A stretch of DNA of 64,000 bases from Roseibium sp. HPY-6 (GTDB lineage Bacteria; Pseudomonadota; Alphaproteobacteria; Rhizobiales; Stappiaceae), in NCBI RefSeq assembly GCF_040530035.1, contig NZ_JBEWCD010000003.1, positions 186,001-250,000 of the forward strand, in the 5' to 3' direction. The notes under the pieces were generated by a model. It saw only the letters and a list, made by a program, of their open reading frames with translations, had not been told where the DNA came from and searched no databases. Shown here one piece after another: positions 8,800 through 54,072 of the stretch. Position numbers and translations under genes: made by a program. Numbering within the stretch: the first letter of the stretch is position 1; each line of letters begins with the position of its first letter.

Positions 8800-9048
8800 C
8801 TAGCGCACTTGCCCTGACACTTCGTTCAGCCAAGCCTTCAGGTTTTTCTCTAATTTTAGACGAAACGCGTCTATCGTCGCCTTGGAGCCCTTCAAATTGA
8901 TGGGTCTGGCCTCAGACTGACGGACTTTGTTGCAAATCCCGTTTCCCGGATACAACCCGCCTTGTGGCAGTCGCATGGTCTGAACCCTGAGAAATTGCGG
9001 GTTTCCGGACGGCCTTACGCATTGCATTTCTGCCGGAGTGTGCTCCAA
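8800..9048 (-). CDS. Doubtful small ORF in the gap before the protease-nuclease gene
   Basis: An 82-residue reading frame opening with TTG fills most of the 422-base gap 8676-9097. Its C-terminal half (rich in Lys, Leu and Ala, predicted helical) looks protein-like, but the start is weak and I recognise no family. The gap otherwise holds the 8695-8720 hairpin and the promoter of the gene at 9098. It may simply be non-coding. Confidence 0.25.
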   Translation of the reverse strand: MEHTPAEMQCVRPSGNPQFLRVQTMRLPQGGLYPGNGICNKVRQSEARPINLKGSKATIDAFRLKLEKNLKAWLNEVSGQVR

Positions 9049-9097
9049 TAAACCCTTACGTGCATTTTCAATAGTCCGATTTCAAAGGGGGGAATTT

Positions 9098-11245
9098 ATG
9101 TCTGCCTCAAGTGAAAACATTGAACGCATGAGAAAATTCAGGAAGCGTTTTCTCGATCGCGACAATGAATTGAACGAAGAACTTGCCGATACCAGCGGCG
9201 GCCTCGATCTTGAGGCCAGTCTGGAGGCGTTCGAAACCTTTACGCCGGAGGGCGCTGCACCGGCGGGGCTCAGTGACGAATTCAATCTGGAAAGCATTAT
9301 CATGCGGTCCGGCAGGCCAGTGCTGGACGTGTTGAACAACGAGACGGTTCTGGAATTCGTCGAGCAATCGGAAAGCAAGACCTGGAAAGCCCGCCTGGAA
9401 AGCGCGGCCGACATTCTCGAACACGCCATCAAGGCAAGCGGGCGCATCAATCTACAAAATCACTATCTGGATTGGGTCGGCACCGGCTGGCTGGTTGCCC
9501 GGGACATCATGGTCACGAACCGTCACGTCGCCCGGGAATTCACCATGCGCGACGGCGAGGGATTTACCTTTGCAACGGATGGTGCGCGCGCTGTGCGGGC
9601 GAACATCGACTTTCTGAAGGAATTCGACAATCCGGGCGCACGCGTCTTCAAACTGATCGATGTTCTGGATGTGATCGATTATCCCGATATGGCCTTTTTC
9701 CGCGTCGAGCAGACGGCCGGCGACGGCCCTTTGTCGGACCCGATCCTTCTGTCGTCCACGCCGTCAGAAACTCAGCTTGCTGCCGTGATCGGCTATCCGG
9801 CCAGCGACTCGCGCATTCCCGATTTCACCCTGATGGAAGACATCTACGGCAAACGCTACAATCACAAGCGCGTCGCACCGGGCAGCGTTACATTCGTGGA
9901 AGAAGACCGCCTGCTGCATGATGCAACCACATTGGGCGGCAACTCGGGCTCGGTGGTACTGAACCTTAAAACCGGTGAGGCATTCGGCCTGCACTATTCC
10001 GGCGCCTTCATGACCACCAATTATGCCGTCAGGTCTGACATCGTGAAAGAAGCACTGGAGCGGGTGCAGCGCGGAGACAGCAGCGCTTACGAAGCTGAAC
10101 GCCGCAGGCAGAACTCGCGGGACGTGGACGGCTCCTCGGGTGCGGTGCCACAACCCCGTTTGGGCGATAGCAACGTTGTCCTCCAAACACCGCCTCAACC
10201 GATTCCGGGTTTGGGCGCGCAGTCGGTAACATTCCCGCTCACTGTCACAGTCTCCCTTGGCGCACCCGGTGGTGCCAACACTACGACATATGCCTCCGCA
10301 CCATTGGAGCCGGAGCCCGGGTCACGCCAACCACCGATACCTGATCCTGGCGACGATGATCTCATTGACGAAAACGAAGAAGCCCGTCCGGAAACCTACC
10401 GCAACCGCATGGGTTTCAACGCGGAGTTTCTCGGTGCGGACAAACGGACGGAGCTGCCTGAGGTTCTGCTTAAAAAGGATCTTCTCAGGTTCGAATTCGA
10501 CGGCGTCGAAATGAGTGAGCTGAAGTACCATAATTTTTCCGTCGTCATGAACAAGCCGCGTCGCATGTGTTTTTTCTCGGCTGTAAACATCGATGGCGCC
10601 CAGGCCAAGATGGCGAGCCGCGTAGGCTGGAAATGGGACGGCCGTATTCCGCGGACGCAGCAGATCATGAAGGAATGCTACGGCAACCCGCCGAAATTCA
10701 GCCGGGGCCACATGACCCGACGCAACGATCCGGGCTGGGGCTCGGATACCGATGCAAAGCTGGGCAACGAAGACAGCATGCATGTTACCAACGCGACGCC
10801 GCAAATGCAGGCCTTCAACTCACCGATCTGGCTCGAACTGGAAGACTATGCACTCAACAATGCCATCGAAGACGGCATGCGCGTTTGCGTCTTCACCGGC
10901 CCTTTTTTCAGGAACAGTGACCCGGTGCATTTCGGAGTGAAGATTCCGGTCGCCTTCTGGAAGGTGATCGCCTTCGTCCATGACCGGACACGCAAATTAT
11001 GTTCCACCGGGTACAGGATGGACCAGACAGCGAACCTGCCAAGTCAGGAGGAATTTGTCTTCGGCGCCTTCACGTCAAGCCACACCCAGCAGGCAGCCCA
11101 GGTGTCCGTACGTTCCATCGAAGAGGAAGCAGCCATCGATTTTGGCGGTCTTGCGGATCTGGACCCGCTTGGCCAGCAGGAGAGCGTTGGAGGGCGCAGA
11201 CAGGCAATTCCACTCCTTTCGAAGACCCAGATAAGATATCTATGA
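9098..11245 (+). CDS. Trypsin-like serine protease fused to NUC-type DNA/RNA nuclease
   Basis: 715 residues. Residues 1-100 are charged and helical. Residues about 125-310 form a trypsin/V8-like protease: GTGWLV then NRHVA with His143, DYPDMAFF with Asp197, and GGNSGS with Ser283, so the triad is complete. A Pro-rich linker (about 345-430) leads to a DNA/RNA non-specific endonuclease domain: FNAEFLG near 440, NIDGA, SRGHMTRRNDPGWG with His538 (usual DRGH, here Ser for Asp) and VTNATPQ with Asn565. No signal peptide, so it is likely cytosolic. A GGGGGGAA site precedes ATG 9098. The combination suggests a stress- or invader-triggered effector with protease control of a nuclease; this is inference. 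It is the same architecture as the gene at 29481, though diverged. It faces the lipase operon. Confidence 0.85.
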   Translation: MSASSENIERMRKFRKRFLDRDNELNEELADTSGGLDLEASLEAFETFTPEGAAPAGLSDEFNLESIIMRSGRPVLDVLNNETVLEFVEQSESKTWKARLESAADILEHAIKASGRINLQNHYLDWVGTGWLVARDIMVTNRHVAREFTMRDGEGFTFATDGARAVRANIDFLKEFDNPGARVFKLIDVLDVIDYPDMAFFRVEQTAGDGPLSDPILLSSTPSETQLAAVIGYPASDSRIPDFTLMEDIYGKRYNHKRVAPGSVTFVEEDRLLHDATTLGGNSGSVVLNLKTGEAFGLHYSGAFMTTNYAVRSDIVKEALERVQRGDSSAYEAERRRQNSRDVDGSSGAVPQPRLGDSNVVLQTPPQPIPGLGAQSVTFPLTVTVSLGAPGGANTTTYASAPLEPEPGSRQPPIPDPGDDDLIDENEEARPETYRNRMGFNAEFLGADKRTELPEVLLKKDLLRFEFDGVEMSELKYHNFSVVMNKPRRMCFFSAVNIDGAQAKMASRVGWKWDGRIPRTQQIMKECYGNPPKFSRGHMTRRNDPGWGSDTDAKLGNEDSMHVTNATPQMQAFNSPIWLELEDYALNNAIEDGMRVCVFTGPFFRNSDPVHFGVKIPVAFWKVIAFVHDRTRKLCSTGYRMDQTANLPSQEEFVFGAFTSSHTQQAAQVSVRSIEEEAAIDFGGLADLDPLGQQESVGGRRQAIPLLSKTQIRYL

Positions 11246-12238: not shown

Positions 12239-13165
12239 CTAACGTATCTGTTTGCCGGTGGCAGCTATGTAGCGATCAATGCGGTGATCCTTGACGGAGG
12301 GAAAAAAGCCCTCGAGGTTGACGTCGGACGCTCCGTCAAAAACCCCTTCAAGGTTCTCGGTTCCGCCAACTCCCGGCGCACTTTCAAGGCCCGCCGGAGG
12401 ATTCGCCATCGCATCCTGGATCTGTTGCCTCAGGCTCTTGAACTCTTCTTCACTAAGGGGAGCGGGTCCCTGATCCGGCTCACCCGGACCGGCAGATTCC
12501 AGGTTTGCTTCAAAACCTTCGTTGCGCGCCTTGACCTGACCCGAACCGTCAAAATGGAAGAGCTGTCCGGAATGGGCATAGGTGAAGGGGACACGCGGCA
12601 CCACGTCGTCGTCATTGACAAAGCGGTAGTAGCGGTTACCGAACACGTCCATTATTTTTCGTGCCGTGCCCCGGCGGGCGAGACGCGGCTGACCGAAGGT
12701 CGCAACCCCGGCAACATTGACGGAACCGTGTGTTTCAATGGCGGTATTCACCGCTACTGCACCGCCCAGGCTGTGGCCGGTGAGCCAAAGCGTTTTGCCG
12801 GCTGAACTCGCGGCCCGAAGAGGTGGCAGCAAGATACCCTGCGCAGCCCTGTAGGCTTCCAGGAACCCGCCATGGACGTCGCCGAATGCGCCCTCCAGAT
12901 CGAAAACCTGAATGTTGACCAGCCAGTCGGCGATGCCTTTGGTCCCACGGTAGACAAGTACCGCCGCGTCATCGCTCTCCACGAGGTAGGCTTGCGTATC
13001 GGCAATGTCAGCATGTGCGGTGACCTTCATCCCCAAATCGGCCTCAGCATCGGCCTTGAAGGCAGCAAGGTCCCTGTAACTGCGCTTCGAGATGAGCGCC
13101 AGAGACAACATGGCTTGCCAACTGAAAATCGGATTACGTAGAGAAACTTCGTCGAAATCAGTCAT
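12239..13165 (-). CDS. Class 3 (fungal-type) lipase family protein
   Basis: 308 residues of alpha/beta-hydrolase fold. Motifs in order: VLVYRGTKGIADWLVN (oxyanion/lid strand), VHGGFLEAY, GHSLGGAVA (nucleophile Ser), FGQPR, NDDDVVPRVPF (catalytic Asp region) and, at the end, KDHRIDRYI supplying the His. This is the complete class 3 lipase set. There is no signal peptide from the chosen ATG 13165, which has GGGAG upstream, so a cytosolic or specially exported enzyme acting on membrane lipids is implied. An Asp/Glu/Gly/Pro-rich insert lies between Asp and His (residues about 220-290). It is first in a two-gene operon with the hydrophobic-hairpin protein and is convergent with the protease-nuclease. 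Confidence 0.85.
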   Translation of the reverse strand: MTDFDEVSLRNPIFSWQAMLSLALISKRSYRDLAAFKADAEADLGMKVTAHADIADTQAYLVESDDAAVLVYRGTKGIADWLVNIQVFDLEGAFGDVHGGFLEAYRAAQGILLPPLRAASSAGKTLWLTGHSLGGAVAVNTAIETHGSVNVAGVATFGQPRLARRGTARKIMDVFGNRYYRFVNDDDVVPRVPFTYAHSGQLFHFDGSGQVKARNEGFEANLESAGPGEPDQGPAPLSEEEFKSLRQQIQDAMANPPAGLESAPGVGGTENLEGVFDGASDVNLEGFFPSVKDHRIDRYIAATGKQIR

Positions 13166-13498
13166 CTTGCAGCTCCCACAAACTAAAAATATCGCAAATG
13201 TCAGATTTGAGCCCATGAAATAGACAGGCTTGCATCTCAAACTTTAAACGTGAACAGCACAATCATCAGAAGACATGAGCATCCGGGAAAACGCAAGAGT
13301 TGACGGATGATTTTTAGTTGTAATTCCGTCTGAGCACCCGTGATCAAAGGTGAGACGCAGCGCTGCGCTTGCACGGACGGTTAGAGATTGATCCTGACTT
13401 CACGAGCCGCGCCATTGGGCACGCGAAAGACCTGATGCAAACTCTTGCCATCCATGCTTTGTTCAGCATCCGGTTTGGAAAGTGCGGGGGCAACGCTC
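13166..13498. other. Intergenic region between divergent lipase and secreted-protein genes
   Basis: 333 bases without a supportable gene. It must carry the promoters of the leftward lipase operon and possibly of the rightward gene at 13499. A short GCAGCGCTGC palindrome lies near 13358, but I see no clear promoter hexamers or repeats. Confidence 0.5.
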
Positions 13499-17665: not shown

Positions 17666-17740
17666 TGGAGCGGGCGATGGGATTCGAACCCACGACCCCA
17701 ACCTTGGCAAGGTTGTGCTCTACCCCTGAGCTACACCCGC
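17666..17740 (-). tRNA. tRNA-Gly (GCC)
   Basis: 75 nucleotides including encoded CCA. The cloverleaf is complete: acceptor GCGGGTG/CGCCCGC with a discriminator T, D arm with CTCAGGGGTAGAG, anticodon loop TTGCCAA reading GCC (glycine), and T arm with GGTTCGAATCC. Its 3' end points toward the accessory genes at 13.5-17.6 kb, the usual side for tRNA-targeted islands. Confidence 0.97.
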
Positions 17741-25338: not shown

Positions 25339-26226
25339 TCAATGCCGCTTCATTCGCCGGGCGCCGGAAAGTGCTTTTTGGGCGCGTTCGCGCGAAACTT
25401 CTCTCTGCGCATCGGCTTGCAGATAGTCTTCCTCGCGCAAACCCAGCCTTTCGGCAAACCGCTCCCGGATCAGTCCGTAAAATGTTGCATGCAGGCTGGA
25501 GAATATCCATACGAGGATCAGCATCGTACCCATCGGAAAAATAGCAGACCGGATTTGCTGCCACAGGTCGTTTGCCGGAAGCAGCCCATCGCTGACACTG
25601 AGTAGAAATCCCCAGGCAAGACCCAGAAAACCGGCAAGAAGGCTCATGATAAGTGCCGAAAAGACCATTGCCCAGCCAAGCCCGGATGTTGCCCGCCAGC
25701 TTTCTTTAAGTGTCAGCGGATCGTCGACAGCAGCCGCAGGAAGCACAACCGAAAACTTCTGAACCACCATGAGAGCGATAAAGGGCGCGAGGAACATCAG
25801 CAAAAGCCCGAACCCGGCTGTCAGCGCGGCGACGATCGAGGACACAATAATCAGCGGGATCAATGACAGAAAGCCGATCAGCGCGAGCACGATCTGGTAG
25901 AGTATGACGTTGATGTTTCGTTTTCCGAACGTGATCGGAAAATCGCGCGCATCGATCAGTATTCGGCGAACGTAGGCAATTGCAATGGAAAACCCGACGA
26001 GCAAATTGGCAATTGCGGCAAGCGCCCGTAATGCGCCCTCATCGGCCTTGGCCACCGGTTCGGTCATGTAAGAGACGGTCGTGAACCCGCTCTCGGGCAT
26101 GAGAGACGAGCCAATGGCAAAATTGAGCGCCAGCAGAAGCAGGATATAGGCCCATCCGGTTTTGAAGAGTGTCCCGATATTGTGTTGTGCAAGGGAGACT
26201 GAACGTTCCAGAACGGTGATGAACAT
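25339..26226 (-). CDS. Unrecognised multi-pass membrane protein
   Basis: 295 residues with five or six hydrophobic segments (about 20-40, 60-85, 108-160 as two, 185-215, 235-260) and a basic, Arg-rich C-terminal tail. I recognise no family. The frame stays open far upstream over ispG, but hydrophobic protein sequence begins at ATG 26226 (FITVLERSVSLAQHNIG), and the upstream part is antisense to ispG, so 26226 is the start. It is divergent from ispG. Confidence 0.78.
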   Translation of the reverse strand: MFITVLERSVSLAQHNIGTLFKTGWAYILLLLALNFAIGSSLMPESGFTTVSYMTEPVAKADEGALRALAAIANLLVGFSIAIAYVRRILIDARDFPITFGKRNINVILYQIVLALIGFLSLIPLIIVSSIVAALTAGFGLLLMFLAPFIALMVVQKFSVVLPAAAVDDPLTLKESWRATSGLGWAMVFSALIMSLLAGFLGLAWGFLLSVSDGLLPANDLWQQIRSAIFPMGTMLILVWIFSSLHATFYGLIRERFAERLGLREEDYLQADAQREVSRERAQKALSGARRMKRH

Positions 26227-26422
26227 GGCCTGACCCCGGTGAATTCTGTGCGATACAAAACGTAGAGAGTCTTCGGGGTCTTCGCTAGGGTGTCGCGCGT
26301 TCGCCGCGGGGCAATTCACCAAACTTTGCCCTTTTTCGCCCCATCTGCCCATCCAATGCTGGAAACTTCCGTCAATTTCCCTCATATGGTTGGCAAATGC
26401 CCTTAACCGGTTGGCTTCAGTC

Positions 26423-27682
26423 ATGATTGATGATTTCGCAAAACCCCTGCCGCGACGCAAATCCGTCGGTGTCATGGTCGGTAATGTTGAGGTTGGCGGC
26501 AGCGCTCCAATCGTCGTCCAATCCATGACCAACACGGACACGGCCGACGCGGATTCAACGGTTGCCCAGGTCGCCGCCCTTGCGCGCGCAGGTTCTGAGA
26601 TCGTGCGCATCACCGTCGACCGGCCCGAAGCCGCAGCCCAGGTGCCGCGCATCAAGGAGCGGCTCGAGCGGATCGGCATCGACGTGCCGCTTGTTGGCGA
26701 TTTCCACTATATCGGCCACAAGCTGCTGGCGGATTATCCCGACTGCGCTGCCGCACTCGACAAGTACCGGATCAACCCGGGCAATGTCGGCTTCAAGGCC
26801 AAGCGTGATACACAGTTCTCGCAAATCATCGATATCGCGCTCAAACACGACAAACCGGTGCGCATTGGCGTCAACTGGGGGTCGCTCGATCAGGAACTGC
26901 TTACCAAGCTCATGGATGAAAACGCCGGGAGCACCAATCCCGTATCCGCAGCGGCGGTCATGCGCGAAGCGATCATCCAGTCGGGCCTCCTGTCCGCGGA
27001 ACGGGCCGAGGGTCTTGGGATGGGCCGCGACAAGATCATCCTGTCGGCCAAGGTCAGCCAGGTCCAGGACCTGATTGCCGTTTATGCTGATCTCGCCCGG
27101 CGCTGCGACTACGCGCTCCATCTTGGCCTCACCGAAGCGGGTATGGGAACCAAGGGGATTGTGTCTTCCGCCGCCTCCATGGGCATTTTGCTGCAGCAAG
27201 GCATCGGCGACACCATCCGGGTCTCCCTGACACCGGAGCCGGGCGGCGATCGCACGCGCGAAGTCCAGGTGGCGCAGGAACTTTTGCAGGTGATGGGCTT
27301 TCGGGCATTCGTTCCCGTTGTTGCCGCCTGCCCCGGCTGCGGCCGGACCACGTCGACCGTTTTCCAGGAGCTGGCAAGCGACATTCAGGATCATATCAGG
27401 GACTCTATGCCGGCGTGGCGCGAGCAGTATCCAGGCGTTGAAAATCTCAATGTCGCGGTCATGGGCTGTATCGTGAACGGTCCCGGCGAATCCAAGCATG
27501 CCGATATCGGCATTTCGCTTCCGGGCACCGGGGAGACGCCCTCTGCGCCTGTTTTTGTTGACGGTGAGAAAGTTGCGACGCTCCGGGGCGAAGGCATAGC
27601 CGACGAATTCAAACAGATGGTTCTGGACTATATCGAGAAGCGGTATGGGACCGGGACAAAATCGTCCTCCGACGCTGCCTGA
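26423..27682 (+). CDS. ispG: 4-Hydroxy-3-methylbut-2-en-1-yl diphosphate synthase
   Basis: 419 residues, full-length bacterial IspG (GcpE). The TIM-barrel start [20 protein letters not shown] is followed by [11 protein letters not shown] and [12 protein letters not shown]. The 4Fe-4S site has two Cys in AACPGCGRT and one in [11 protein letters not shown]. It performs the penultimate step of the MEP isoprenoid pathway using flavodoxin or ferredoxin electrons. The start is uncertain: ATG 26423 or the in-frame TTG 26390, neither with a strong ribosome site. Confidence 0.96.
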
Positions 27683-27705
27683 TCCGGCACTCAAGGGTTT
27701 TGATC

Positions 27706-28608
27706 ATGATGCAACAGCCGGGCATGCCCGAGCCTCGGAAAAAGCCGCTTCTCGTGATCACGTCCCAGGTGGTCAGCGGTGGCATCAGTGGACGCGGACT
27801 GACCTTTGCCCTTGAGCGGATCGGGCACGATGTCTGGTTCCTGCCGACAATCCTCTTGCCATGGCATCCAGGTCACGGCAAGGGAACCCGGATCGTTGCG
27901 TCCGAAAGAGATTTCGCTTCAATTGCCGAAGATCTCGCCCGTTCAGCGAAACTCGCGGAACTGGGTGGAATCATTTCCGGATATCTCGGCGCGGCGGAAC
28001 AGGCCGGTCCAATTGCGAAGCTCGTAACGGCAGTCAAACAGGTCAATCCGGAGGCCCCCTATCTTTGCGATCCGGTGATAGGGGACCATCACAGCGCTGG
28101 CGGCGGCGGACTATACGTGCCCAAAGCCACGGCCGAGGCTATCCGAGATGAACTGGTCCCCCTTGCCGACATCGTCACCCCGAATTCCTTCGAACTCGGT
28201 TGGCTGACGAACCGCGAAGTTGAGGGTGAACTCCAGGCGCTTTCCGCAGCTCGGGCGCTCGGCAAAAAGAAGGTGCTGATCACGTCCTCACCAGCCCTTC
28301 GCCGAAATGCCATTGCGAACCTGCTGGCAGGACCGCGCGGCGCAGTCGCCGCAGAACACGCCGCGATCGAAAACCCGCCGCACGGGACAGGCGATCTGAT
28401 AGCAGGCCTGTTTCTTGCCAATTCTCTCGCCGGTTTCGATGACGAAGAAGCGTTGAAACGCGCTTCCGCATCCGTATTCGAGCTTGTCGCCAGAAGCGTG
28501 AAAAAAGGTGCGAACGAACTGCTGTTTGCCGAAGAGCAGCAGTCGGTCGTACGGGCGATGGCTCTTGTGACATCCCGGCGCGTTGTTGAAACCAAAGCCC
28601 GTGCCTGA
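27706..28608 (+). CDS. pdxY: Pyridoxal kinase, PdxY type
   Basis: About 300 residues of the ribokinase-like pyridoxal kinase family. SQVVSGGISGRGLTFALERIGHDVWFLPT marks the N-terminal lid/substrate part (only short pieces diagnostic: SGGISGRG and WFLPT), PYLCDPVIGD near 125 is the metal/ATP segment, TPNSFELGWL follows, and GTGDLIAGLF near 230 holds the catalytic Asp and anion hole. It makes pyridoxal 5'-phosphate from pyridoxal. It overlaps the following DUF429 gene by 8 bases. Confidence 0.88.
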   Translation: MMQQPGMPEPRKKPLLVITSQVVSGGISGRGLTFALERIGHDVWFLPTILLPWHPGHGKGTRIVASERDFASIAEDLARSAKLAELGGIISGYLGAAEQAGPIAKLVTAVKQVNPEAPYLCDPVIGDHHSAGGGGLYVPKATAEAIRDELVPLADIVTPNSFELGWLTNREVEGELQALSAARALGKKKVLITSSPALRRNAIANLLAGPRGAVAAEHAAIENPPHGTGDLIAGLFLANSLAGFDDEEALKRASASVFELVARSVKKGANELLFAEEQQSVVRAMALVTSRRVVETKARA

Positions 28609-29338
28609 CAGCGGCGGCGTCTGGCTTGCGGGTGTCGACGGCTGTAAGGCAGGATGGGTTGCCGTCCTGCGAAACCGAAACGATCCCGACAATCCGGTGC
28701 TCAAGGTGTTTCCGTCCTTTCGCGAGCTGTTAGCGGCCGATCCGGTCCTCAGCATTATCGCGGTCGATATGCCGATTGGCTTGCCGGACTTCATTTCGGC
28801 CGAGGGACGCGGGCCGGAAAAGGCTGCCCGCAAACACCTTGGCGAACGCCAGTCCTCTGTCTTCACAGTGCCGTCCCGCGGCGCTGTTTATGAAACGGAC
28901 TACAGAGAGGCATGTGCGACCGCGCTCAAGACATCTTCCCCGCCAAAAAAAGTCTCTAAACAGTGCTTCTTTCTGTTTCCGAAAATCCGGGAGATCGATG
29001 AACTGATGACACCGGAACTCGAAGAGCGCATCTTCGAGGTTCATCCGGAACTTGCCTTCTGGCGACTGAATGGCGGCAGGGAAATGAGCCTGCCGAAGAA
29101 AGTCAAAAGCCGTCCAAATCCCGACGGTCTCGATCAGCGCCGCGACTTGCTTGTGTCCAAGGGGCTGCCGCAGACGTTCCTCGACCAGAGACCTCCAAAG
29201 GGATGCGGCCGGGACGACCTTCTCGATGCCGCCGCCAACAGCCTGATCGCGGAGAGGTGCCTGCTGGGCCAGGCGGACCCGTTTCCTGCTTCCTACAGGC
29301 GCGACGAGCGCGGATTGCGGATGGCGATCTGGGCCTGA
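28601..29338 (+). CDS. DUF429 family protein (predicted RNase H-like fold)
   Basis: 245 residues from GTG 28601, which overlaps the end of pdxY. Motifs are AGVDGCKAGWVAV (first acidic strand), IAVDMPIGLP near 54, FEVHPELAFW near 148, and GRDDLLDAAANSL near 210 (last acidic residues). These fit the DUF429 predicted nuclease family with an RNase H-like core; activity is untested. Its last 73 codons are contained in a 224-bp segment repeated at 31453-31676, beyond the inserted protease-nuclease gene. Confidence 0.88.
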   Translation: MPDSGGVWLAGVDGCKAGWVAVLRNRNDPDNPVLKVFPSFRELLAADPVLSIIAVDMPIGLPDFISAEGRGPEKAARKHLGERQSSVFTVPSRGAVYETDYREACATALKTSSPPKKVSKQCFFLFPKIREIDELMTPELEERIFEVHPELAFWRLNGGREMSLPKKVKSRPNPDGLDQRRDLLVSKGLPQTFLDQRPPKGCGRDDLLDAAANSLIAERCLLGQADPFPASYRRDERGLRMAIWA

Positions 29339-29343
29339 AGAAC
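29120..29343 (+). repeat. Direct repeat, left copy (3' end of intact DUF429 gene)
   Basis: 224 bases, matched at 31453-31676 (offset 2333) with only two differences: C29140/A31473 and G29164/A31497. The match ends 5 bases past the stop codon. Sequence before 29120 and after 29343 does not match. The interval between copies is 2109 bases and holds one gene. Confidence 0.95.
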
Positions 29344-29480
29344 GGTCAATTGGACCCAGTACAATTGGATGAACGTGAAAGACACTTTTGCACGCGAGAA
29401 ATCCACCAGAAGTTGTCAAGGCGTGCTAGACTATCGGGATTGATAATTTCACTCAAACATTTCTCCCGGAGGTAGAGTCC

Positions 29481-31382
29481 GTGGCCAAAAAAAGTAAAAC
29501 CGTTCGCAAATCTAAATCCGAAGCAATGCGAAACACGCTGCGAAAATTCATCAGGACGCGAGGTTCGGCCTATCTGTCTGACCCGAATGTTACATCAATT
29601 GGGATCGGTCGAAAAAACGACACTGGTGACATCAGTGTCGTCTTCACTGTCGAAGAAAAGGTCGAAACTTCAGCTCTTGAAAGCTTGAACACCAAAGAAT
29701 TGCCGACCGAGATCGAGTTCGAAGGTGTCAAAATCGCAACAGATGTCGTTCCAAGGCGTTATAAGCTGAGCTACCGGCTCGTTGAGCCTGAAGATCCCAA
29801 TGTTTTGAAAACAAGGCTGGACACTGTTGTTCCGGGTGCGAGCGTTTCCCATGTAGACGGAAGCGCTGGAACGCTGGGCATGATTGTCTACGACGAAGAG
29901 ACCGGAAGGCCGTGCATTTTATCCAATTGGCATGTTCTTGACGGCGACACCGGGGAAGTTGGCGACACGATCGTGCAACCCGGCCCCCATGACGACAACA
30001 ATATATCAAACAATGCCTGCGGCGAACTACTGCGCAGCCATTTGGGTGCCGCTGGTGACTGTGCGCTTGCAAACCTGCGGAATCGGCATTTCGATGCCTC
30101 AATCCATAATCTTGATGTCGTTCCAACGAAGTTAGCCGACGTTGAACTCGATGATACGCTCGTTAAAACCGGGCGAACGACAGGAACCACATATGGCATC
30201 GTCCGCCGCACGGACGTCATTGTAAAAATCAATTACGGCGGAACGACTGGCGAACAAATGATCGGCTGTTTCGAGATCAAGCCGAACCCGGCTTTACCCG
30301 CTTCAGGGAACGAAATTAGCATGGGTGGCGATTCCGGCAGTGTTTGGGTCATAGCTGAAGGTAAAAAAGCAAAGAATATTTTCGCAGGACTGCATTTTGC
30401 TGGAGAGGGCGGCGATAACCCTGACGAACATGCTCTCGCCTGCTATCCGGTATCGGTGCAAAACAAGCTTCGGTTCACGCTGTCACCACCAGCAACACTC
30501 ATATTGGAAGATGACGAGCCAGAGTCCGTTGGTCTCAGAACTGGATATGACGCTAATTTTCTCGGACTACCGGCACCCATGCCGGAGATGTCGACCGCAA
30601 TTAAACGCGACGCCGTCAACTTCGAAAGAAATCAGACAATTCCCTATACACATTTCTCGGTCTGCTTAAGCGCGAAACGCCGAATGGCGCGATTCGTAGC
30701 CTGGAACATTGACGGAGCCCGAAAGGTAGTGCTTGGAGATCATTCGTTCAGACAAGACAAGCGTATCCAGACTAAGTTTCAGCTGGACAATTCTACCTAC
30801 GAGGAAAACAAACTGGACCGCGGGCATATTGCAAGACGCGCTGATCTCGCATGGGGGCCAATCCCCGAAGCCAAACAGGCCAACAAGGATTCCTTCTTCT
30901 ACACCAACATCGCTCCGCAACACGAACGTTTCAACAGATCAAGCCTGAGCGGACTTTGGGGTCGACTTGAAAACCTGATCCTAGAAGAAGCCGCCGACCA
31001 GGACATTAGAGTATCTGTAATTTCTGGCCCAGTCTTTGGTGAAGATGACCCGGAATACCGTGGCGTCCTGATTCCACGAGAGTTCTGGAAACTGGTTGCG
31101 TACCGCGGCCGCAGCGGCAAACTGACGGCAGCTTGCTTCGTTCTGTCACAGAACGATTTCCTGAGTGACATCGAAGCTATTGATTTCGATCCCTTCCGCC
31201 TGTTCCAGGTGACGGTGGCGGAACTCTCCGAACGAACAAAACTAGGCTTTTCGGCTTATGCTGATGCGGACATCACACATACGACTGAACTGATGTCCTC
31301 CTTCAGCCTGGAACACCTTGGAGCGCGACCGCTAAAGCAAAAGGTTAGGGAAGTAGCGTCACGTGAGCAGCTCGTCATTTAG
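29481..31382 (+). CDS. Second trypsin-like protease fused to NUC-type nuclease
   Basis: 633 residues from GTG 29481 with GGAGG nine bases upstream. A basic N-terminus and a domain with NVTSIGIGRK and FTVEEKV (about 35-85) precede a trypsin-like protease: SNWHV with His151, GAAGDCALA with Asp193 and GGDSGSVWV with Ser285. A linker motif YDANFLG near 357 (FNAEFLG in the 9 kb paralogue) opens the endonuclease part: NIDGARK, canonical DRGHIARRADLAWG with His449, and YTNIAPQ with Asn476, followed by ISGPVF. Both active sites look complete. No signal peptide. A short GCGTCA/TGACGC hairpin overlaps the stop. The gene is AT-richer than its neighbours and lies alone between two copies of the DUF429 3' end, so it was probably inserted as a cassette. 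Confidence 0.87.
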   Translation: MAKKSKTVRKSKSEAMRNTLRKFIRTRGSAYLSDPNVTSIGIGRKNDTGDISVVFTVEEKVETSALESLNTKELPTEIEFEGVKIATDVVPRRYKLSYRLVEPEDPNVLKTRLDTVVPGASVSHVDGSAGTLGMIVYDEETGRPCILSNWHVLDGDTGEVGDTIVQPGPHDDNNISNNACGELLRSHLGAAGDCALANLRNRHFDASIHNLDVVPTKLADVELDDTLVKTGRTTGTTYGIVRRTDVIVKINYGGTTGEQMIGCFEIKPNPALPASGNEISMGGDSGSVWVIAEGKKAKNIFAGLHFAGEGGDNPDEHALACYPVSVQNKLRFTLSPPATLILEDDEPESVGLRTGYDANFLGLPAPMPEMSTAIKRDAVNFERNQTIPYTHFSVCLSAKRRMARFVAWNIDGARKVVLGDHSFRQDKRIQTKFQLDNSTYEENKLDRGHIARRADLAWGPIPEAKQANKDSFFYTNIAPQHERFNRSSLSGLWGRLENLILEEAADQDIRVSVISGPVFGEDDPEYRGVLIPREFWKLVAYRGRSGKLTAACFVLSQNDFLSDIEAIDFDPFRLFQVTVAELSERTKLGFSAYADADITHTTELMSSFSLEHLGARPLKQKVREVASREQLVI

Positions 31383-31452
31383 CGTCAAAAGCTGACGCCT
31401 GAATGGCAGGAGAGCAAGACGCGTACCTTAGAAAGCCGAAAGTCGCCGGAAC

Positions 31453-31676
31453 CCCGACGGTCTCGATCAGCGACGCGACTTGCTTGTGTCCAAGGGACTG
31501 CCGCAGACGTTCCTCGACCAGAGACCTCCAAAGGGATGCGGCCGGGACGACCTTCTCGATGCCGCCGCCAACAGCCTGATCGCGGAGAGGTGCCTGCTGG
31601 GCCAGGCGGACCCGTTTCCTGCTTCCTACAGGCGCGACGAGCGCGGATTGCGGATGGCGATCTGGGCCTGAAGAAC
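31453..31676 (+). pseudogene. Duplicated 3' fragment of the DUF429 gene (right repeat copy)
   Basis: 224 bases, 99% identical to 29120-29343. It encodes only the last 73 residues of the DUF429 protein, including the GRDDLLDAAANSL segment, and has no start or promoter of its own. It is most simply the original gene end displaced, or a second copy brought in, by insertion of the protease-nuclease cassette. Confidence 0.92.
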
Positions 31677-31711
31677 CGACTTTGTCACCAGCGCACTTGG
31701 ACGCGCTGACA

Positions 31712-32359
31712 TCAAAGCGTCTTGAGCAGATTGTCCAATTCCGTCCGAAGGCTCGTCCCTCGCACGATCTCCCCGTGGCACGGAATGATCATGGTCGGAC
31801 TTTCCTCTTCAAGCCGTTCACGCACCCAATCTGAAAAACGTGCCTTGTCCTTAAGACCATATTTCGGAAACGTCTTCAGAAAACCCGGATGGGCCGCCTC
31901 GTTTTCGTTGTCCTGAAGCCCGCAAAACGCGTCGGTGACGATCCAGGCAAGCTCATTGCCGGTGCGTACAATCAGCCAGAGTTCTCCCGTCTTGAGCCCT
32001 TCAGGTTCAGCAAACTCCACATTATCCGGAAGCGCATCGGCAAGTGAGGACAACGGTTCGAAACGTTGACCGGTTATCTTGTCGAGCCGCGGGCGTGCCG
32101 CATCGGTGCACACAAGTCTTGCCTCGCCGAACAGCTGAACATGCTCTGAAACCGCCTTGTTGTGATAATGATTGGGCGCCAGCAGAAACCGGACGTCATG
32201 CGTTTCGGCAACGATCCCGCCGGTCTTTTCAACCGGACTGTAGAGGCAGACACTACCATCGGGCAGTCCGACAATGGTGCATCTCAGATTGCCTTTCCGG
32301 ACCGTCCATAGGGTGTCATGACCTTCGACGCGCTCAAGCGAGGGGTTGCGTTTGGTCAT
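31712..32359 (-). CDS. Metallo-beta-lactamase-fold protein (DUF4336-like)
   Basis: 215 residues. VRFLLAPNHYHNKAV near residue 56 supplies an H-x-H pair, IVTDAFCG near 145 a metal-binding Asp, and IPCHGEIVRG near 197 another His; together they resemble a reduced metallo-beta-lactamase fold, though the classical HxHxDH is incomplete. Its ATG overlaps the stop of the upstream TetR gene (ATGA), so the two are translated together and this is probably the regulator's target. The substrate is unknown. Confidence 0.75.
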   Translation of the reverse strand: MTKRNPSLERVEGHDTLWTVRKGNLRCTIVGLPDGSVCLYSPVEKTGGIVAETHDVRFLLAPNHYHNKAVSEHVQLFGEARLVCTDAARPRLDKITGQRFEPLSSLADALPDNVEFAEPEGLKTGELWLIVRTGNELAWIVTDAFCGLQDNENEAAHPGFLKTFPKYGLKDKARFSDWVRERLEEESPTMIIPCHGEIVRGTSLRTELDNLLKTL

Positions 32360-32949
32360 GATTTCTCCATGGCTTTGAGTTGATTGCACAGGACATCGAC
32401 CAGGAAACGTCCGGCCCGGTTGGACTGGTCCAACCGGTTCTGGGCATGTACGCCCATGACACCGGACACCAGTCCCTTTGCCACCGAGGGAACATCCATC
32501 GACGGATCCAGCTTGCCTTCGGAAAGCGCCTTTTGAAGGCAGGCCAGGAAACAGCTTTCCAGTTCGTCCCAGTAGTGCCTGACAGCTTCTTCAAGCCGCA
32601 CACTGCCAACCCTGGCATTTTCGATCCCGGTGTTCACGACAAGGCATCCGTACTTGCTCGATGTCATCGATCCGTCTGTGACCAGTGACTTCAGGAAACC
32701 GGTGATCTCGGGGACACCGCCATCTCTCATCGGCTGCATTGCAGTTGTGACTGCGCTCTGCGTGTAAAATTCCAGGGCCGCGAGGTAGAGCCCCTCCTTA
32801 CCGCCGAACTCGGTCCGGATGGCAAACTGATTGAGGCCGGTAAGGCGCTCAAGTTCTCTCAGGCCGAGTGCCTGATAACCGTGTTGCCAGAACGCATAGA
32901 CCACGCGCTCGACAACTTCTTCAACGATGTAGCTCTTTGGACGGGCCAT
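32356..32949 (-). CDS. TetR-family transcriptional regulator
   Basis: 197 residues with an N-terminal helix-turn-helix (LGLRELERLTGLNQFAIRTEF, residues about 28-48) and a TetR_C-like ligand domain containing GCLVVNTGIE, common in members sensing electrophiles. It is first in a two-gene operon with the metallo-beta-lactamase-like protein, and a dyad lies 24-40 bases upstream. Autoregulation is likely. Confidence 0.9.
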   Translation of the reverse strand: MARPKSYIVEEVVERVVYAFWQHGYQALGLRELERLTGLNQFAIRTEFGGKEGLYLAALEFYTQSAVTTAMQPMRDGGVPEITGFLKSLVTDGSMTSSKYGCLVVNTGIENARVGSVRLEEAVRHYWDELESCFLACLQKALSEGKLDPSMDVPSVAKGLVSGVMGVHAQNRLDQSNRAGRFLVDVLCNQLKAMEKS

Positions 32950-32972
32950 AAATCTTATTTCTCTACGATTGC

Positions 32973-32989
32973 ATAGAAATTATTTCTAT
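32973..32989. promoter_or_regulatory. Probable TetR operator
   Basis: Perfect inverted repeat ATAGAAA-TTA-TTTCTAT, 23 bases before the start of the leftward TetR gene, inside an AT-rich promoter region. Related AGAAAT half sites recur nearby at 32998-33005. Confidence 0.65.
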
Positions 32990-33166
32990 ACACTCGCAAA
33001 GAAATGTCAACAGCGCTGTTTCAACGCTTTGACCGGCTCAGGCCTTCCCTTTTCGTCAGAACCTGCTAAAAGGCGCGCCGCTCATTGATGGTGAGCCACC
33101 GGTCGCAGCCTACCCGGTGACGAGCGTCTCAACGGACGTTCACAGCGAAAACAAGGGACTATATCG

Positions 33167-33856
33167 TTGAAAACACTTGTCATCTGTTCCGGCGGAATGG
33201 ATTCCGTCACCCTTGCGCACAAGATTGCGCGAGACCATGAGCTTGTTGGTCTGATCTCCTTCGACTACGGCCAGCGCCACCGCAAGGAACTGGATTTTGC
33301 CAGGACCTGCGCCGAGGAGCTCAACACCGAACATATTCTCATGAACATCGAAAACATCGGCCGCCAGCTCACCGGCTCGGCGCTGACCGATGACGTCGAC
33401 GTTCCCGATGGGCACTATGCCGAAGACACTATGAAGGTCACCGTTGTGCCGAACCGCAACGCGATCATGCTCACCATCGCCTACGGCATTGCCGCTTCGC
33501 GTGGCGCCAATGCCGTTGCAACAGCTGTCCATGGCGGCGATCATTTCATCTATCCTGATTGCCGTCCGGCCTTCACATCGAGCTTTGAGACAATGCAGCG
33601 CTATGCGCTGGACGGCTACGCGGAGATCAGCCTTGTCACGCCCTATGTTCACGTCAGCAAGGCGGATATCGCAGCCGAGGGTCTGCGTTTGGGCGTCGAT
33701 TATCGAAAGACCTGGTCCTGCTACAAGGGTGGTGAAACCCATTGCGGCCGATGCGGAACATGCGTCGAGCGCCGGGAAGCCTTCCACCTGGCAGATGGTA
33801 TCGATCCTACGGTCTATGCGGACACGGACTTCTGGAAGGCCGCCTGCAATGTTTAG
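33167..33856 (+). CDS. queC: 7-Cyano-7-deazaguanine synthase
   Basis: 229 residues. N-terminal PP-loop SGGMDSVT binds ATP; SFDYGQRHRKEL, VPNRNAIML and AVHGGDH are family motifs. The zinc site near the end is C-x7-C-x2-C-x2-C (SCYKGGETHCGRCGTC). It converts 7-carboxy-7-deazaguanine to preQ0 with ATP and ammonia. Starts at TTG. It is first of an overlapping queC-D-E-F operon. Confidence 0.96.
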   Translation: MKTLVICSGGMDSVTLAHKIARDHELVGLISFDYGQRHRKELDFARTCAEELNTEHILMNIENIGRQLTGSALTDDVDVPDGHYAEDTMKVTVVPNRNAIMLTIAYGIAASRGANAVATAVHGGDHFIYPDCRPAFTSSFETMQRYALDGYAEISLVTPYVHVSKADIAAEGLRLGVDYRKTWSCYKGGETHCGRCGTCVERREAFHLADGIDPTVYADTDFWKAACNV

Positions 33857-34235
33857 GATCACAAAGGAATTCCACTTCTCCGCATCCCATCAGCTGATCG
33901 GGCTTGGAGACGATCACCCCTGTGCGCGGTTTCACGGCCACAACTACGTTGTCGAGATCGAACTCGCCTCGAACGAATTGAACACAGTCGGTTTCGTGCG
34001 TGATTACAACGAATTGAAGGCGTTGAAGACCTACATCGATGACACGCTCGATCACCGTCATCTCAATGATGTCCTGGGAGATGACTGCGTGACGGCCGAG
34101 CGGCTGGCGAAGCATCTTTTCGACTGGTGCAAGGCTGAATGGACGGAAACAATGGCGGTTCGGGTCAGGGAAACACCGAAAACCTGCGCGGAGTACCGGC
34201 CGTTGGTCTACGTTCCCGTGGAGGCCCGCCGATGA
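33849..34235 (+). CDS. queD: 6-Carboxy-5,6,7,8-tetrahydropterin synthase
   Basis: 128 residues, overlapping the end of queC by 8 bases. Zinc His residues are in FHFSASHQL and RFHGHNY; catalytic Cys is in [16 protein letters not shown] and a Glu in CAEYRP complete the site. It converts 7,8-dihydroneopterin triphosphate to carboxytetrahydropterin, the first dedicated queuosine step. Confidence 0.96.
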
Positions 34236-34960
34236 CCCCGGAGACCATTCGCGTCAACGAAATTTTCGGTCCGACCATCCAGGGCGAGGGCGCGCTGATC
34301 GGCCAACCGACCGTATTCGTGCGGACCGGGGGATGTGACTACCGCTGCAGCTGGTGCGATACGCTGCACGCTGTCGACAGCGCATATCGGGACGAATGGC
34401 TGCCGATGTCACCGGCCGCCATCATGATGCAGGTCGATATCCTGTCTGGCGGCAAACCGCTGATCGTATCCCTTTCCGGCGGCAACCCGGCCATTCAACC
34501 GCTCGGCGGCCTCATCGGGCTGGGCCGGCAGGAAGGCTATAAGTTTGCGCTGGAGACACAGGGCAGCATTGCCCGGGACTGGTTCGCCATGCTGGATACG
34601 CTGACACTCAGCCCCAAACCCCCTTCCAGCGGCATGACCATCGATTGGCAGAAGCTGGCCGAATGCGTCGAGGCAGCGGGACCGGTCACCCGGATCGTGA
34701 TGAAAGTCGTGATCTTCGATGACGAGGACTACGCTTTCGCGCGAGACGTCGCTGCGCGCTACCCTGAGCTTCCGCTTTTTCTTCAGCCCGGAAATCATAC
34801 ACCGCCACACCCGGACGAACAGAACGGTGCGATCGACATGTCTGGCATCATGGAGCGCATGCGCTGGCTGGTCGACAAGGTTTCCACCGACCGGCTGTAC
34901 TCTGCCACCGTGCTGCCACAGCTGCACACGCTGATCTGGGGCAATTTGCGGGGCGTTTGA
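34232..34960 (+). CDS. queE: 7-Carboxy-7-deazaguanine synthase (radical SAM)
   Basis: 242 residues; the ATG overlaps the queD stop (ATGA). Radical-SAM cluster C-x3-C-x2-C in [11 protein letters not shown] near residue 35; [11 protein letters not shown] is the QueE opening; LSGGNPA is a slight variant of the usual SGGEP glycine-rich motif. It contracts carboxytetrahydropterin to carboxydeazaguanine. The Gly-Asn-Pro in place of Gly-Glu-Pro occurs in a known QueE subgroup. Confidence 0.94.
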
Positions 34961-34998
34961 GCGCCAAATCGAACACCGTTCATACCAGCGAGAGATTC

Positions 34999-35466
34999 AT
35001 GTCCGAAAGCAGCATTTACGAGAACCTGACCCAGCTCGGCGCATCGACCGAGCTTCCGGACGACCCGGACAATGCGGTTTTGGAAAAGGTTCCAAACCCC
35101 CAGGCGGGCACGCCCTACATGGTGCGTTTCGTCGCGCCGGAATTCACCTCGCTATGCCCGATCACCAGTGCGCCGGATTTCGCGCATCTTGTGATCGACT
35201 ATGTGCCTAACGAATTTCTGGTCGAGAGCAAATCCCTGAAACTCTATCTAGGCTCGTTTCGAAATCACGGCGCTTTCCACGAGGACTGCACTGTTTCCAT
35301 CGCCAAACGTCTGGTTGAACTGCTTGACCCGGCGTGGCTCCGGATCGGTGGCTACTGGTACCCGCGTGGCGGCATTCCGATCGACGTCTTTTATCAGACC
35401 GGCCCGGCCCCCGAGGGCGTCTGGATACCGGAACAGGGCGTTGCGCCTTATCGCGGACGCGGCTGA
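34999..35466 (+). CDS. queF: NADPH-dependent 7-cyano-7-deazaguanine reductase
   Basis: 155 residues, the short unimodular QueF type. Catalytic Cys53 and Asp60 lie in [10 protein letters not shown]; the substrate motif is [20 protein letters not shown] (shortened: ESKSLKLYL and HE). It reduces preQ0 to preQ1. With queC, D and E this gives a full route from GTP product to preQ1. ATG 34999 preferred over the upstream start at 34957. Confidence 0.95.
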
Positions 35467-35484
35467 GCCGGTTCAAGCCAACTC

Positions 35485-36093
35485 TTACTCCGGGGTCGGT
35501 AGGGAAAGCTCCGGTGCCGGCTCGATCGTCTGGGTCGTCACCATCTCAAAATTGGGCGCAGTCGTCTCGTAGACCGCCTTGACGATGAACCCCTCGTCGC
35601 GTGTCAGCCAGTATGTGTAGCGGTTTTCCGTGATCATCCCCTGACTGACCGTCAGGTCGGCCGCGACCTTTTCCAGGGGAACGCCATCGACGGTGTCTTC
35701 GCCGCACTCCGCGTTGCGGATGGTTTCCGCATTTGCCTTTTTAGCCGCAATTGCACCTTCCGCGTTCTGGGCGCTGTCGAGATCACGCACTTTGCTCCAG
35801 GTCTTGCCCTCATCCGGCGACTGATACATGACATTCTGATAGGTCAGTACCCAAGGTCCCGCCGGATCGGTCGGCACCGTCATGTGGTGATCCTGGCTGA
35901 GATAAAGAAAATCGTTCACCGTCGCCGGCGCGCCTTTGAACTGGGTCGTCGCGACCGTTTTTGTTGCAACACCCTGGTCGAGTTGCATGTAGATTTCCGT
36001 GAACCGACTGCTGCAGGCATCGGCAAAAGCGGGCTGTGAAAGCCCGGCAAGGATCACGGCGGCACAGCCGATCGGAGTGTTGAAAGTCCTCAT
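35485..36093 (-). CDS. Unrecognised exported protein
   Basis: 202 residues with a signal peptide (cut near AFADA) and two Cys in the mature part. The middle (VLTYQNVMYQSPDEGKTWSKV) and the Thr/Glu-rich C-terminal tail do not point to a known family. It ends 18 bases after the convergent queF stop. ATG 36093 has a GGGA upstream. Confidence 0.75.
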   Translation of the reverse strand: MRTFNTPIGCAAVILAGLSQPAFADACSSRFTEIYMQLDQGVATKTVATTQFKGAPATVNDFLYLSQDHHMTVPTDPAGPWVLTYQNVMYQSPDEGKTWSKVRDLDSAQNAEGAIAAKKANAETIRNAECGEDTVDGVPLEKVAADLTVSQGMITENRYTYWLTRDEGFIVKAVYETTAPNFEMVTTQTIEPAPELSLPTPE

Positions 36094-52219: not shown

Positions 52220-52987
52220 ATGACTGACGCACAGGACAGCGAGCCGAAAATCCCTCTCGGGGTCGGAACCCTGATCGCCGATAGTTTCTCAATCCTTTTC
52301 AGGCACATCATCCCTGTTGTCGTGATCGGCTTCATCCCGAGCCTCTTCGGCGTCCTCCTGGGCGGGTATCTCGTCGGTTTTGAGGCTGTACTGGGTCTTG
52401 AGGAAACAAGCGCCTCGTCCGGTGGCGCGAGTGCTCTCATCAGTCTGATTGACCTGGTCGTCTATTCGATCACTACGGCTTTCATGGTTCAGCTCGCCTA
52501 TGACGCAAAACTCAGGCGACCTGTCAGGATCGGAAAATACATCGGGCCGGCGATGGCAGCGATTTTCCCAATCGCAATTCTAGGCATAGCGGTCGGCCTT
52601 CTCATGGGTCTGGCCGCACTCGCCTTTGTCTTGCCCGGGCTTTGGGTTTATGCCGTTTTCTCCGTCATGGAACCAGCCGTCGTCATCGAACGCCTCGGCT
52701 TCAAAGGACTGGGACGAAGCGAAAAACTCACCAAAGACTATCGCTGGCCGATCGTCGGGGCATTGGTAATCACCTGGATATGCGCGCTTGTCATCATCAT
52801 CATCGCTTTGGTCGTTGCCGACCTTGCGTTGACAAGTGGCATCCTGGCAGTCTCGATCGTCATTTACGCAGCGCTGACCGCGGTCGGAACCGGCCTCATC
52901 AGTATCCTAACCGCGCTTATCTATGCGCGCCTGCGCGAAATCAAGGAAGGAGTAAGCGTCGATGAGATTGCAGCCGTGTTCGATTGA
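52220..52987 (+). CDS. Membrane protein, paralogue 1 of 3
   Basis: 255 residues with about six hydrophobic segments. It shares with the next two genes an N-terminal LGVGTLIADSFSILF motif, a middle YSITTAFMVQLAYDAKLRRP, GLWVYAVFSVMEPAVVIERLG followed by TKDYRWPIVGAL, and a C-terminal LIYARLREIKEGVSVDEIAAVFD (pieces only). I recognise no named family; function unknown, possibly membrane remodelling or transport. Confidence 0.8.
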   Translation: MTDAQDSEPKIPLGVGTLIADSFSILFRHIIPVVVIGFIPSLFGVLLGGYLVGFEAVLGLEETSASSGGASALISLIDLVVYSITTAFMVQLAYDAKLRRPVRIGKYIGPAMAAIFPIAILGIAVGLLMGLAALAFVLPGLWVYAVFSVMEPAVVIERLGFKGLGRSEKLTKDYRWPIVGALVITWICALVIIIIALVVADLALTSGILAVSIVIYAALTAVGTGLISILTALIYARLREIKEGVSVDEIAAVFD

Positions 52988-53133
52988 GCAAAAACGACAT
53001 GATCAACTTAAGAGTTCATTTTGATTTCGGGTTTACCACCATCGCACCTGTCCGTTTGAATTCCTCATCCGGATAACGAGACGGGCATCAGGCGCATTTT
53101 TCGCCTTCAGACTGAATACCGGGGATTTTATTT

Positions 53134-53913
53134 ATGGCAGACATATCGGCAATGCACACGAAGCAACCGCTTGGCGTCACAACGCTGCTGAGCGAGAGTT
53201 TCTCAATTTTCTTCGGAAACTTTTTCAAAGTGTTCCAACTGGCCTTTGGGCCGGCTCTGATCGGCTTGCTCCTTTCAGGTGCGCTGCTTGGCTTTGGCGT
53301 GGTTGCGGGAACGGCGGTTCCGGATATCAGCGGCCCGGGATTCGCGATTGCAATTGTGCTCACCATCCTGATCCAAATCGTTGTTTATGCCGTCACCACG
53401 GCCCTGCTTGTTCAGCTGGCCTATGACGCCAAGCTCAACCGCCAGCCACGACTTGGTAGATATTTCGGACCTGCATTTGCGTCCGTGGTTCCGCTTGTTG
53501 TTCTCAGCTTCATCTCCGGTATCTTGTTCATGATCGGTTTTTCCCTGCTCATCGTTCCAGGCCTCTGGATTTACGCTGTGTTTTGCGTCCTGGCGCCAGC
53601 CATCGTCATTGAGGGGGCCGGCTTCGGCGGCCTTGGCCGCAGCGCGCGCCTGACCAAGGAATACCGTTGGCCGATCGTTGGCTTAATGGTTCTGTTCCTG
53701 CTGATTCTGATCGGTATCAACATGATCACCGGCTTCGCCATCGGCATTATTTCGGTGCTTGTCGGCAGCGTTGCGCTGGACCTTATCCTGAACGCGATCA
53801 TGTCAACTTTTGGAGCTGGCCTGGCCAGTATCCTCGTCGCACTCATCTACGCGCGTCTGCGCGAGATCAAGGAAGGCGTCAGCGTCGATCAGATCGCGGG
53901 TGTGTTCGACTGA
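53134..53913 (+). CDS. Membrane protein, paralogue 2 of 3
   Basis: 259 residues, same layout as its neighbours: LGVTTLLSESFSIFFGNFF, VTTALLVQLAYDAKLNRQP, GLWIYAVFCVLAPAIVIEGAG, TKEYRWPIVGLM and RLREIKEGVSVDQIAGVFD (short anchors). The hydrophobic parts diverge more than the polar anchors, suggesting an old duplication under selection. It has its own 146-base spacer upstream, so may be independently transcribed. Confidence 0.8.
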   Translation: MADISAMHTKQPLGVTTLLSESFSIFFGNFFKVFQLAFGPALIGLLLSGALLGFGVVAGTAVPDISGPGFAIAIVLTILIQIVVYAVTTALLVQLAYDAKLNRQPRLGRYFGPAFASVVPLVVLSFISGILFMIGFSLLIVPGLWIYAVFCVLAPAIVIEGAGFGGLGRSARLTKEYRWPIVGLMVLFLLILIGINMITGFAIGIISVLVGSVALDLILNAIMSTFGAGLASILVALIYARLREIKEGVSVDQIAGVFD

Positions 53914-53924
53914 TTGGTTGATAC

Positions 53925-53948
53925 AGCGCCGGCATGCCCGCCGGCGCT
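53925..53948 (+). terminator. Hairpin between paralogues 2 and 3
   Basis: Nine-bp perfect stem AGCGCCGGC/GCCGGCGCT with ATGCCC loop, 12 bases after the stop of paralogue 2; no clear T tail. Confidence 0.55.
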
Positions 53949-54072
53949 TGTAGGCAATTCCCATAGGACTTATTGTGCCCAGCCATAAGAAACGATCACG
54001 CCCGCCGAGGCGTGCCAACAGTTCTTAGACATTACTTTTTGAATATTGCTTTTGAATGAATGGAGAATTTGC

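Follow-up and report, generated by a model that had tools for sequence, protein, structure and literature searches.

The window, a 64,000-nt stretch from the genome of the marine bacterium Roseibium sp. HPY-6 (contig NZ_JBEWCD010000003.1, positions 186,001-250,000; this genome is called G000 here), contains a protease-nuclease gene that stands behind an intact DUF429 gene and is followed by an isolated second copy of the DUF429 3' end. DUF429 closes the gene run ispG-pdxK-DUF429, which is kept across the genus. In all 43 genomes examined pdxK lies directly upstream of DUF429, and ispG precedes pdxK in 43/43, although the ispG match is weak and partial in G003 and split in G018. The features of the locus are listed below; G039 is the nearest relative compared.

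28583-29338, plus strand: intact DUF429 gene, the target of the insertion (PF04250, E 1.7e-51).
29059-29343, plus strand: left copy of a 285-bp target duplication, the native and functional DUF429 3' end, where the flank alignments to G039 overlap.
29120-29343, plus strand: left member of a 224-bp near-identical tract (2/224 mismatches with 31453-31676).
29344-31391, no strand assigned: inserted DNA of 2,048 bp, absent from G039, recognised by the G039 alignment and by G+C content.
29481-31382, plus strand: cargo gene, a protease-nuclease of 633 amino acids, recognised by PF01223, NucA, EXOG and EndoG chains, Foldseek and an alignment of 26 proteins.
31392-31452, plus strand: decayed initial 61 bp of the right copy (20/61 mismatches with the left copy, 16/61 with G039).
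31453-31676, plus strand: right member of the 224-bp tract, forming the uniform stretch of the orphaned DUF429 3' end (2/224 mismatches with the left member).
31712-32389, minus strand: native downstream neighbour gene, at the same distance from the DUF429 end as in G039, in a flank that can be aligned with G039; no Pfam family matched it.

The repeat pair 29059-29343/31392-31676 is ungapped, 285 bp long and 92% identical, and its copies lie 2,333 bp apart. No longer direct repeat was reported for the window, the match is far above chance, and a search of the 7.03-Mb genome found the repeat sequence at these two places only. The preliminary description of the locus had recognised 224-bp direct repeats with two mismatches. 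That core is confirmed, its only differences being 29140 C/A and 29164 G/A, but the duplication is not limited to it. The 61 bp preceding the core still match at 41/61 positions, and the two parts diverge very differently. As had been described, the left copy is the end of the intact DUF429 gene and the right copy a fragment on its own; two stop codons interrupt its reading frame, both in its first 61 bp. The fragment begins about 10 bases past the stop codon of the cargo gene.

Within the 2,048-bp insert the G+C content is 51.3% for the cargo gene and 46% for the left spacer, compared with 56.8% for the window; 45/1,242 sliding windows of the same length had a G+C content equal to or below that of the cargo gene. 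The cargo gene is the sole gene-like open reading frame (ORF) in 29344-31391. The remaining ORFs that lie fully within the insert are 60-132 amino acids long and all overlap it, and the ORF list contains no recombinase there, which agrees with the earlier account of a single gene without an integrase. A search of 26000-36000 found no inverted repeats of at least 30 nt; shorter ones were not sought.

The DUF429 of G039 is 93% identical to that of G000. The G039 sequence aligns to 26351-29343 and to 31392-35500, and the two alignments overlap by 285 bp in G039. Therefore 2,048 bp have been added with a 285-bp target duplication. In G039 DUF429 is followed by the same neighbour as in the window, with a spacing of 47 bp in both genomes. 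Genomes were counted as syntenic when they kept this neighbour or queC downstream of DUF429; DUF429 lies directly before the neighbour in 8/25 syntenic genomes, including G037, G021 and G005, which sit near G000 in a tree of the upstream genes. Because the single-copy junction occurs in G039 and in these 8/25 genomes, some of them near G000, the insertion is derived, either in the G000 lineage or in the common ancestor of G000 and G039 with loss in G039. The empty site with one repeat copy, which the preliminary description had proposed to look for in relatives, thus exists, and it supports an insertion in which the target gene stayed whole and a 3' fragment was displaced. The duplicated DUF429 end itself was found in only 1/43 genomes.

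Copies made in one event and then left alone should differ evenly along their length. Here the left and right copies differ at 20/61 positions and then at 2/224 (Fisher p 4e-13), which divides their history into two phases. When the right copy is compared with G039 over the 61 bp, the 16 changes fall on codon positions 5/4/7, while the changes between the left copy and G039 over 285 bp fall 4/1/24. The even spread over codon positions in the 61 bp indicates that the fragment evolved as non-coding DNA. Identity at fourfold sites of DUF429 between G000 and G039 is 0.66, and by a rough reckoning from the sequences the decay of the 61 bp would approximately match the neutral age implied by this divergence. 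Read simply, the pattern suggests an old duplication in which the intact gene has since overwritten the final 224 bp of the right copy. Near-identity may mislead as a measure of age: the event would be much older by the 61-bp stretch than by the 224-bp stretch, and the reading as a recent site-specific island is weakened by the decayed 61 bp with their two stops.

We consider it probable that the locus arose by a single-gene insertion-duplication through homologous recombination, with later gene conversion of the 224 bp. DNA carrying the protease-nuclease gene would have reached an ancestral Roseibium and been integrated into its chromosome, presumably by a RecA-type mechanism, with the DUF429 3' end as anchor. 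The donor DNA may have been a circularised fragment that integrated by a single crossover, or a molecule that crossed over at the anchor on one side and was joined illegitimately, about 285 bp further upstream, on the other. Both routes would double the final 285 bp of DUF429 with the gene between the copies; the last gene of the operon would stay intact, and the 3' fragment downstream would be useless. This fragment would then have decayed until, more recently, the intact copy overwrote 224 bp of it by gene conversion.

Several points weigh against this account. No donor sequence was identified at the junctions, and the insertion was not seen as a polymorphism in a sample that includes no strains of the same species. 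The three other genomes that carry the gene behind DUF429 (G007, G023 and G033) lack the repeat, so duplication is not general to the insertion of this gene. Finally, the 61 bp share four polarised states with G039 and one with the left copy, and the stretch could stem from a G039-like donor.

This last point also favours a recent import, which we regard as possible if rather unlikely. An unsampled relative would already have had DUF429, the gene and the decayed fragment. The gene and the first 61 bp would then have moved into G000 with both crossovers in the recipient's own 224 bp, which was thereby doubled. For such an import the left crossover would have to fall right where DUF429 ends and the right one on the border between the 61 bp and the 224 bp, and the informative polarised sites number only five. 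It gains from the low G+C content of the gene, from a protein-database cluster with one member sequence, and from the sister form of the protein carried by Roseibium sp. M-1. The left copy is G039-like throughout DUF429, with 9-19 mismatches per 100-nt bin over seven bins and 6 in the final 56 nt. Direct transfer from the G007 group was considered and rejected, neither copy resembling the DUF429 of G007 (mismatches 17/61 and 68/224 for the left copy, 25/61 and 69/224 for the right). An old insertion-duplication and a recombinational import are both homologous recombination at DUF429, and neither needs an integrase.

The family of the cargo protein is large and patchily distributed. Of 7,995 candidate proteins scored, 1,605 were relatives at E <= 0.001, with the best 120 of them listed. 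At E <= 1e-60 relatives occur in 4/87 genomes of the family Stappiaceae and in 1/397 genomes sampled from the order, which is the window genome itself. At E <= 1e-100 the window genome is likewise the only one among 385 sampled from the class. Among 72,556 plasmid records, matches that cover 80% of the protein or more occur in 5, of which three are from Rhizobium, one from Streptomyces and one from Tsukamurella. In the protein tree the window gene is sister to the M-1 gene (97/88), the G007 group comes next, and all five Roseibium proteins form one clade (100/99). A clade of the window, G007, G023 and G033 that excludes M-1 was not rejected (approximately unbiased test, p-AU 0.20). The genes in G007, G023 and G033, three other species, are 68-71% identical to the window gene, stand directly behind DUF429 and are followed by queC; no second DUF429 repeat was found there. 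G038, which lacks the gene, is nested among these three in the tree of the upstream genes and has probably lost it. A tblastn search for gene remnants up to 4 kb behind DUF429 in the 43 genomes matched only the four known carriers.

The single Roseibium clade and the loss in G038 would also fit a history in which the gene stood behind DUF429 in the ancestor of the genus, most lineages lost it, and a local rearrangement later produced the second fragment. So would the divergence between G000 and G007, which for the gene (amino acid identity 0.71, fourfold identity 0.34) is close to that for DUF429 (0.74 and 0.35). We judge this history improbable. The right copy and its flank form the DUF429-neighbour junction of G039, and the retention of an empty-site junction behind the gene in G000 largely refutes it; in addition, 41/45 genus genomes have no full-length relative. 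Since the fourfold identity of 0.34 is near saturation, transfer cannot be dated from the comparison of G000 with G007. The spacers that separate the gene from DUF429 in G000 and in G007 showed no trace of homology (score -25, compared with a shuffle mean of -23.2, s.d. 4.5), which is no evidence for independent entry, because intergenic DNA may be saturated at such divergence. At four further loci of the family (L105-L108), direct repeats of at least 30 nt within 6 kb were limited to a 34-nt pair of 76% identity (L108) and a 32-nt pair of 72% (L106); L105 starts at the gene and was searched without an upstream flank.

The preliminary description had likened the locus to a site-specific island. 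It is highly improbable that an integrase-type or insertion sequence-like element entered at the DUF429 3' end and was since stripped of its recombinase. While an intact target on one side with a displaced 3' fragment on the other is the expected geometry, and extra DNA occurs at the DUF429 end in other genomes (below), the insert has neither a recombinase nor inverted repeats of the size sought, and the three other carriers lack the repeat. Moreover, the repeat is far longer than an attachment (att) core, and its mosaic divergence needs homologous recombination or gene conversion, so the comparison is not supported. An assembly artefact is hardly credible for an assembly of 7.03 Mb in eight contigs that is 99.97% complete, with repeat copies that have 22 differences between them and border unique DNA, and with a right flank that matches G039.

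The earlier suggestion that the DUF429 3' end may be a hotspot has weak support. Between DUF429 and the downstream neighbour or queC, 0.8-2.5 kb of extra DNA was present in 13/25 syntenic genomes: the protease-nuclease in 4, one other gene family in 3, other single ORFs in 4 and no clear gene in 2. Another 18/43 genomes had neither the neighbour nor queC within the fetched stretch. Four cargo genes from other species (G019, G036, G042 and G027) were compared with Pfam; two matched no family, one had cysteine-rich repeats and one was a topoisomerase IB, so cargo at this place is not uniformly effector-like. The two junctions upstream of DUF429 had no gap above 0.2 kb. At the TetR-queC junction, used as a control, extra DNA was found in 1/9 genomes compared with 13/25 at the DUF429 end (p 0.05). 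This count of 9 left out G036, G017, G016 and G041, for which the fetched stretch contained TetR without queC, and with these four counted as changed the contrast is gone (13/25 and 5/13, p 0.51). In a wider count, with the 18 genomes that have neither neighbour also taken as changed, the figures are 31/43 and 5/13 (p 0.046). All of these p values ignore kinship among the genomes. The extra DNA and the protease-nuclease in three other species speak for the hotspot, but the control contrast and the single genome with a duplicated end do not, and the case for a special hotspot is weak; the DUF429 end behaves as a turnover point at the end of an operon. We doubt a broader version, in which the DUF429 3' end would be an integrase-free entry point of the genus that the protease-nuclease lineage entered at least twice (in G000 and in the group of G007, G023 and G033) by DUF429-anchored recombination, and in which gene conversion in G000 would keep the repeats alike and the gene removable and transferable as a recombination cassette.

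The only Pfam family found in the cargo protein is PF01223, DNA/RNA non-specific endonuclease, at residues 382-592 (E 1.8e-43); this part also matches solved NucA, EXOG and EndoG chains. The profile match includes the DRGH region, which we take to be the catalytic motif of the nuclease; its residues D446, R447, G448 and H449 are invariant across 26 aligned proteins. So are H151, D193 and S285, by motif presumably the protease triad, and the presumed catalytic residues are thus intact. A structural model predicted from 26 sequences had a mean predicted local distance difference test (pLDDT) score of 71.7 and a predicted template modelling (pTM) score of 0.53, with the protease mostly above 80 and the nuclease poorer. 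Foldseek returned rice NAL1 as the best match to the model (E about 1e-16, TM-score 0.63 by target), followed by alpha-lytic-type proteases. According to the fold of this model and the putative His, Asp and Ser residues, the protein is predicted to be an N-terminal NAL1-like, trypsin-type serine protease joined to a C-terminal EndoG/NucA-type nuclease. No PADLOC or NCBIfam model matched it at E <= 0.01, and lacking a PADLOC match it does not count as a described anti-phage defence gene. From its architecture and patchy distribution, the most likely role would be that of a protease-regulated nuclease in conflict or defence.

The preliminary description had called this gene the second protease-nuclease of the window, and a distant paralogue of 735 amino acids does lie at 9038-11245. 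Its nuclease part is 36% identical to that of the cargo protein, trypsin-like motifs were seen by eye, and a relative is found on the same contig of G039. Near the paralogue, at 12239-13240, is a gene with a GHSLGG motif, also noticed by eye, which we take to be lipase-like. The cargo relative in G033 (L088, DUF429 end +132 to +1946) is without 84 bp that are present in G023. The gap falls where the word GGCGAC occurs twice in G023 and removes 28 residues including the protease serine motif, while the nuclease part is intact; judging by this gap, G033 apparently carries the nuclease without a working protease.

Other features were seen in the window and its relatives. Three tandem ORFs of 255-269 amino acids at 52220-54855 resemble paralogous membrane proteins, and the same interval contains two repeat families, of 121 and 134 nt, with a spacing of about 0.93 kb. 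About 90-100 nt in front of queC form a leader with strong conservation in the window (about 33061-33166), G038 (L063), G007 (L090), G023 (L097), G033 (L088) and G026 (L089); a 29-nt core of it is seen again at 33098 of the window, matching at 28/29 positions. A scan of the whole window with Rfam at gathering thresholds matched only a tRNA at 17669-17740, and the leader is a possible unlisted queuosine-related leader RNA. The queC of G021 may be interrupted: its match (L091, DUF429 end +1477 to +2619) breaks into one piece for residues 1-100 and another for residues 103-229, with about 460 bp between them.

The locus can be compared with four known systems. Integrase-dependent genomic islands at gene 3' ends leave the target intact, and a 3' fragment marks their far end. 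The locus is like them in both respects, but the insert is a single gene with no recombinase gene, and instead of a short, sharply bounded att identity there is a 285-bp repeat of mosaic divergence. Nobusato, Uchiyama and Kobayashi (2000) reportedly described a small restriction-modification unit flanked by a long direct copy of its target, with an empty site in a relative and no transposase. Here the cargo is not a restriction-modification unit but PF01223 with a serine protease domain, and a uniform tract stands beside a decayed one. In Escherichia coli, during tests of homology-facilitated illegitimate recombination, 56/60 Lac- clones gave a polymerase chain reaction product diagnostic of a lacZ duplication. 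Sequencing of 14 clones showed duplications of 109-950 bp, which were ascribed to circular molecules that had been shortened and had integrated by a single crossover (PMC3240628). The E. coli inserts are bracketed, like ours, by a partial duplication of the homologous locus with no site-specific recombinase; the E. coli case is laboratory conjugation of a marked plasmid, whereas here the cargo is a natural chromosomal gene and the duplicate is partly decayed. In type VI secretion clusters of Vibrio cholerae, effector-immunity genes are inserted as modules, and a mechanism akin to homology-facilitated illegitimate recombination has been suggested (PMC5361080). Those clusters share with our locus a constant upstream anchor, a new gene behind it and old DNA shifted downstream, but they displace a whole immunity gene, whereas here a 3' fragment of a conserved gene is displaced.

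With a long direct target duplication at both ends of the insert and a one-copy empty site in G039, the event fits best among the insertion-duplications produced by recombination, which are already well established. It is a clean natural example of a solitary toxin-like gene gained at a conserved operon end, in an insert without a mobile-element enzyme. What it adds is a two-phase repeat, which assigns separate ages to the insertion and to the near-identity, and the finding that the same gene occurs a second time at the same place in the genus. Near-identical flanking repeats at other loci may likewise reflect later gene conversion and not a recent insertion.

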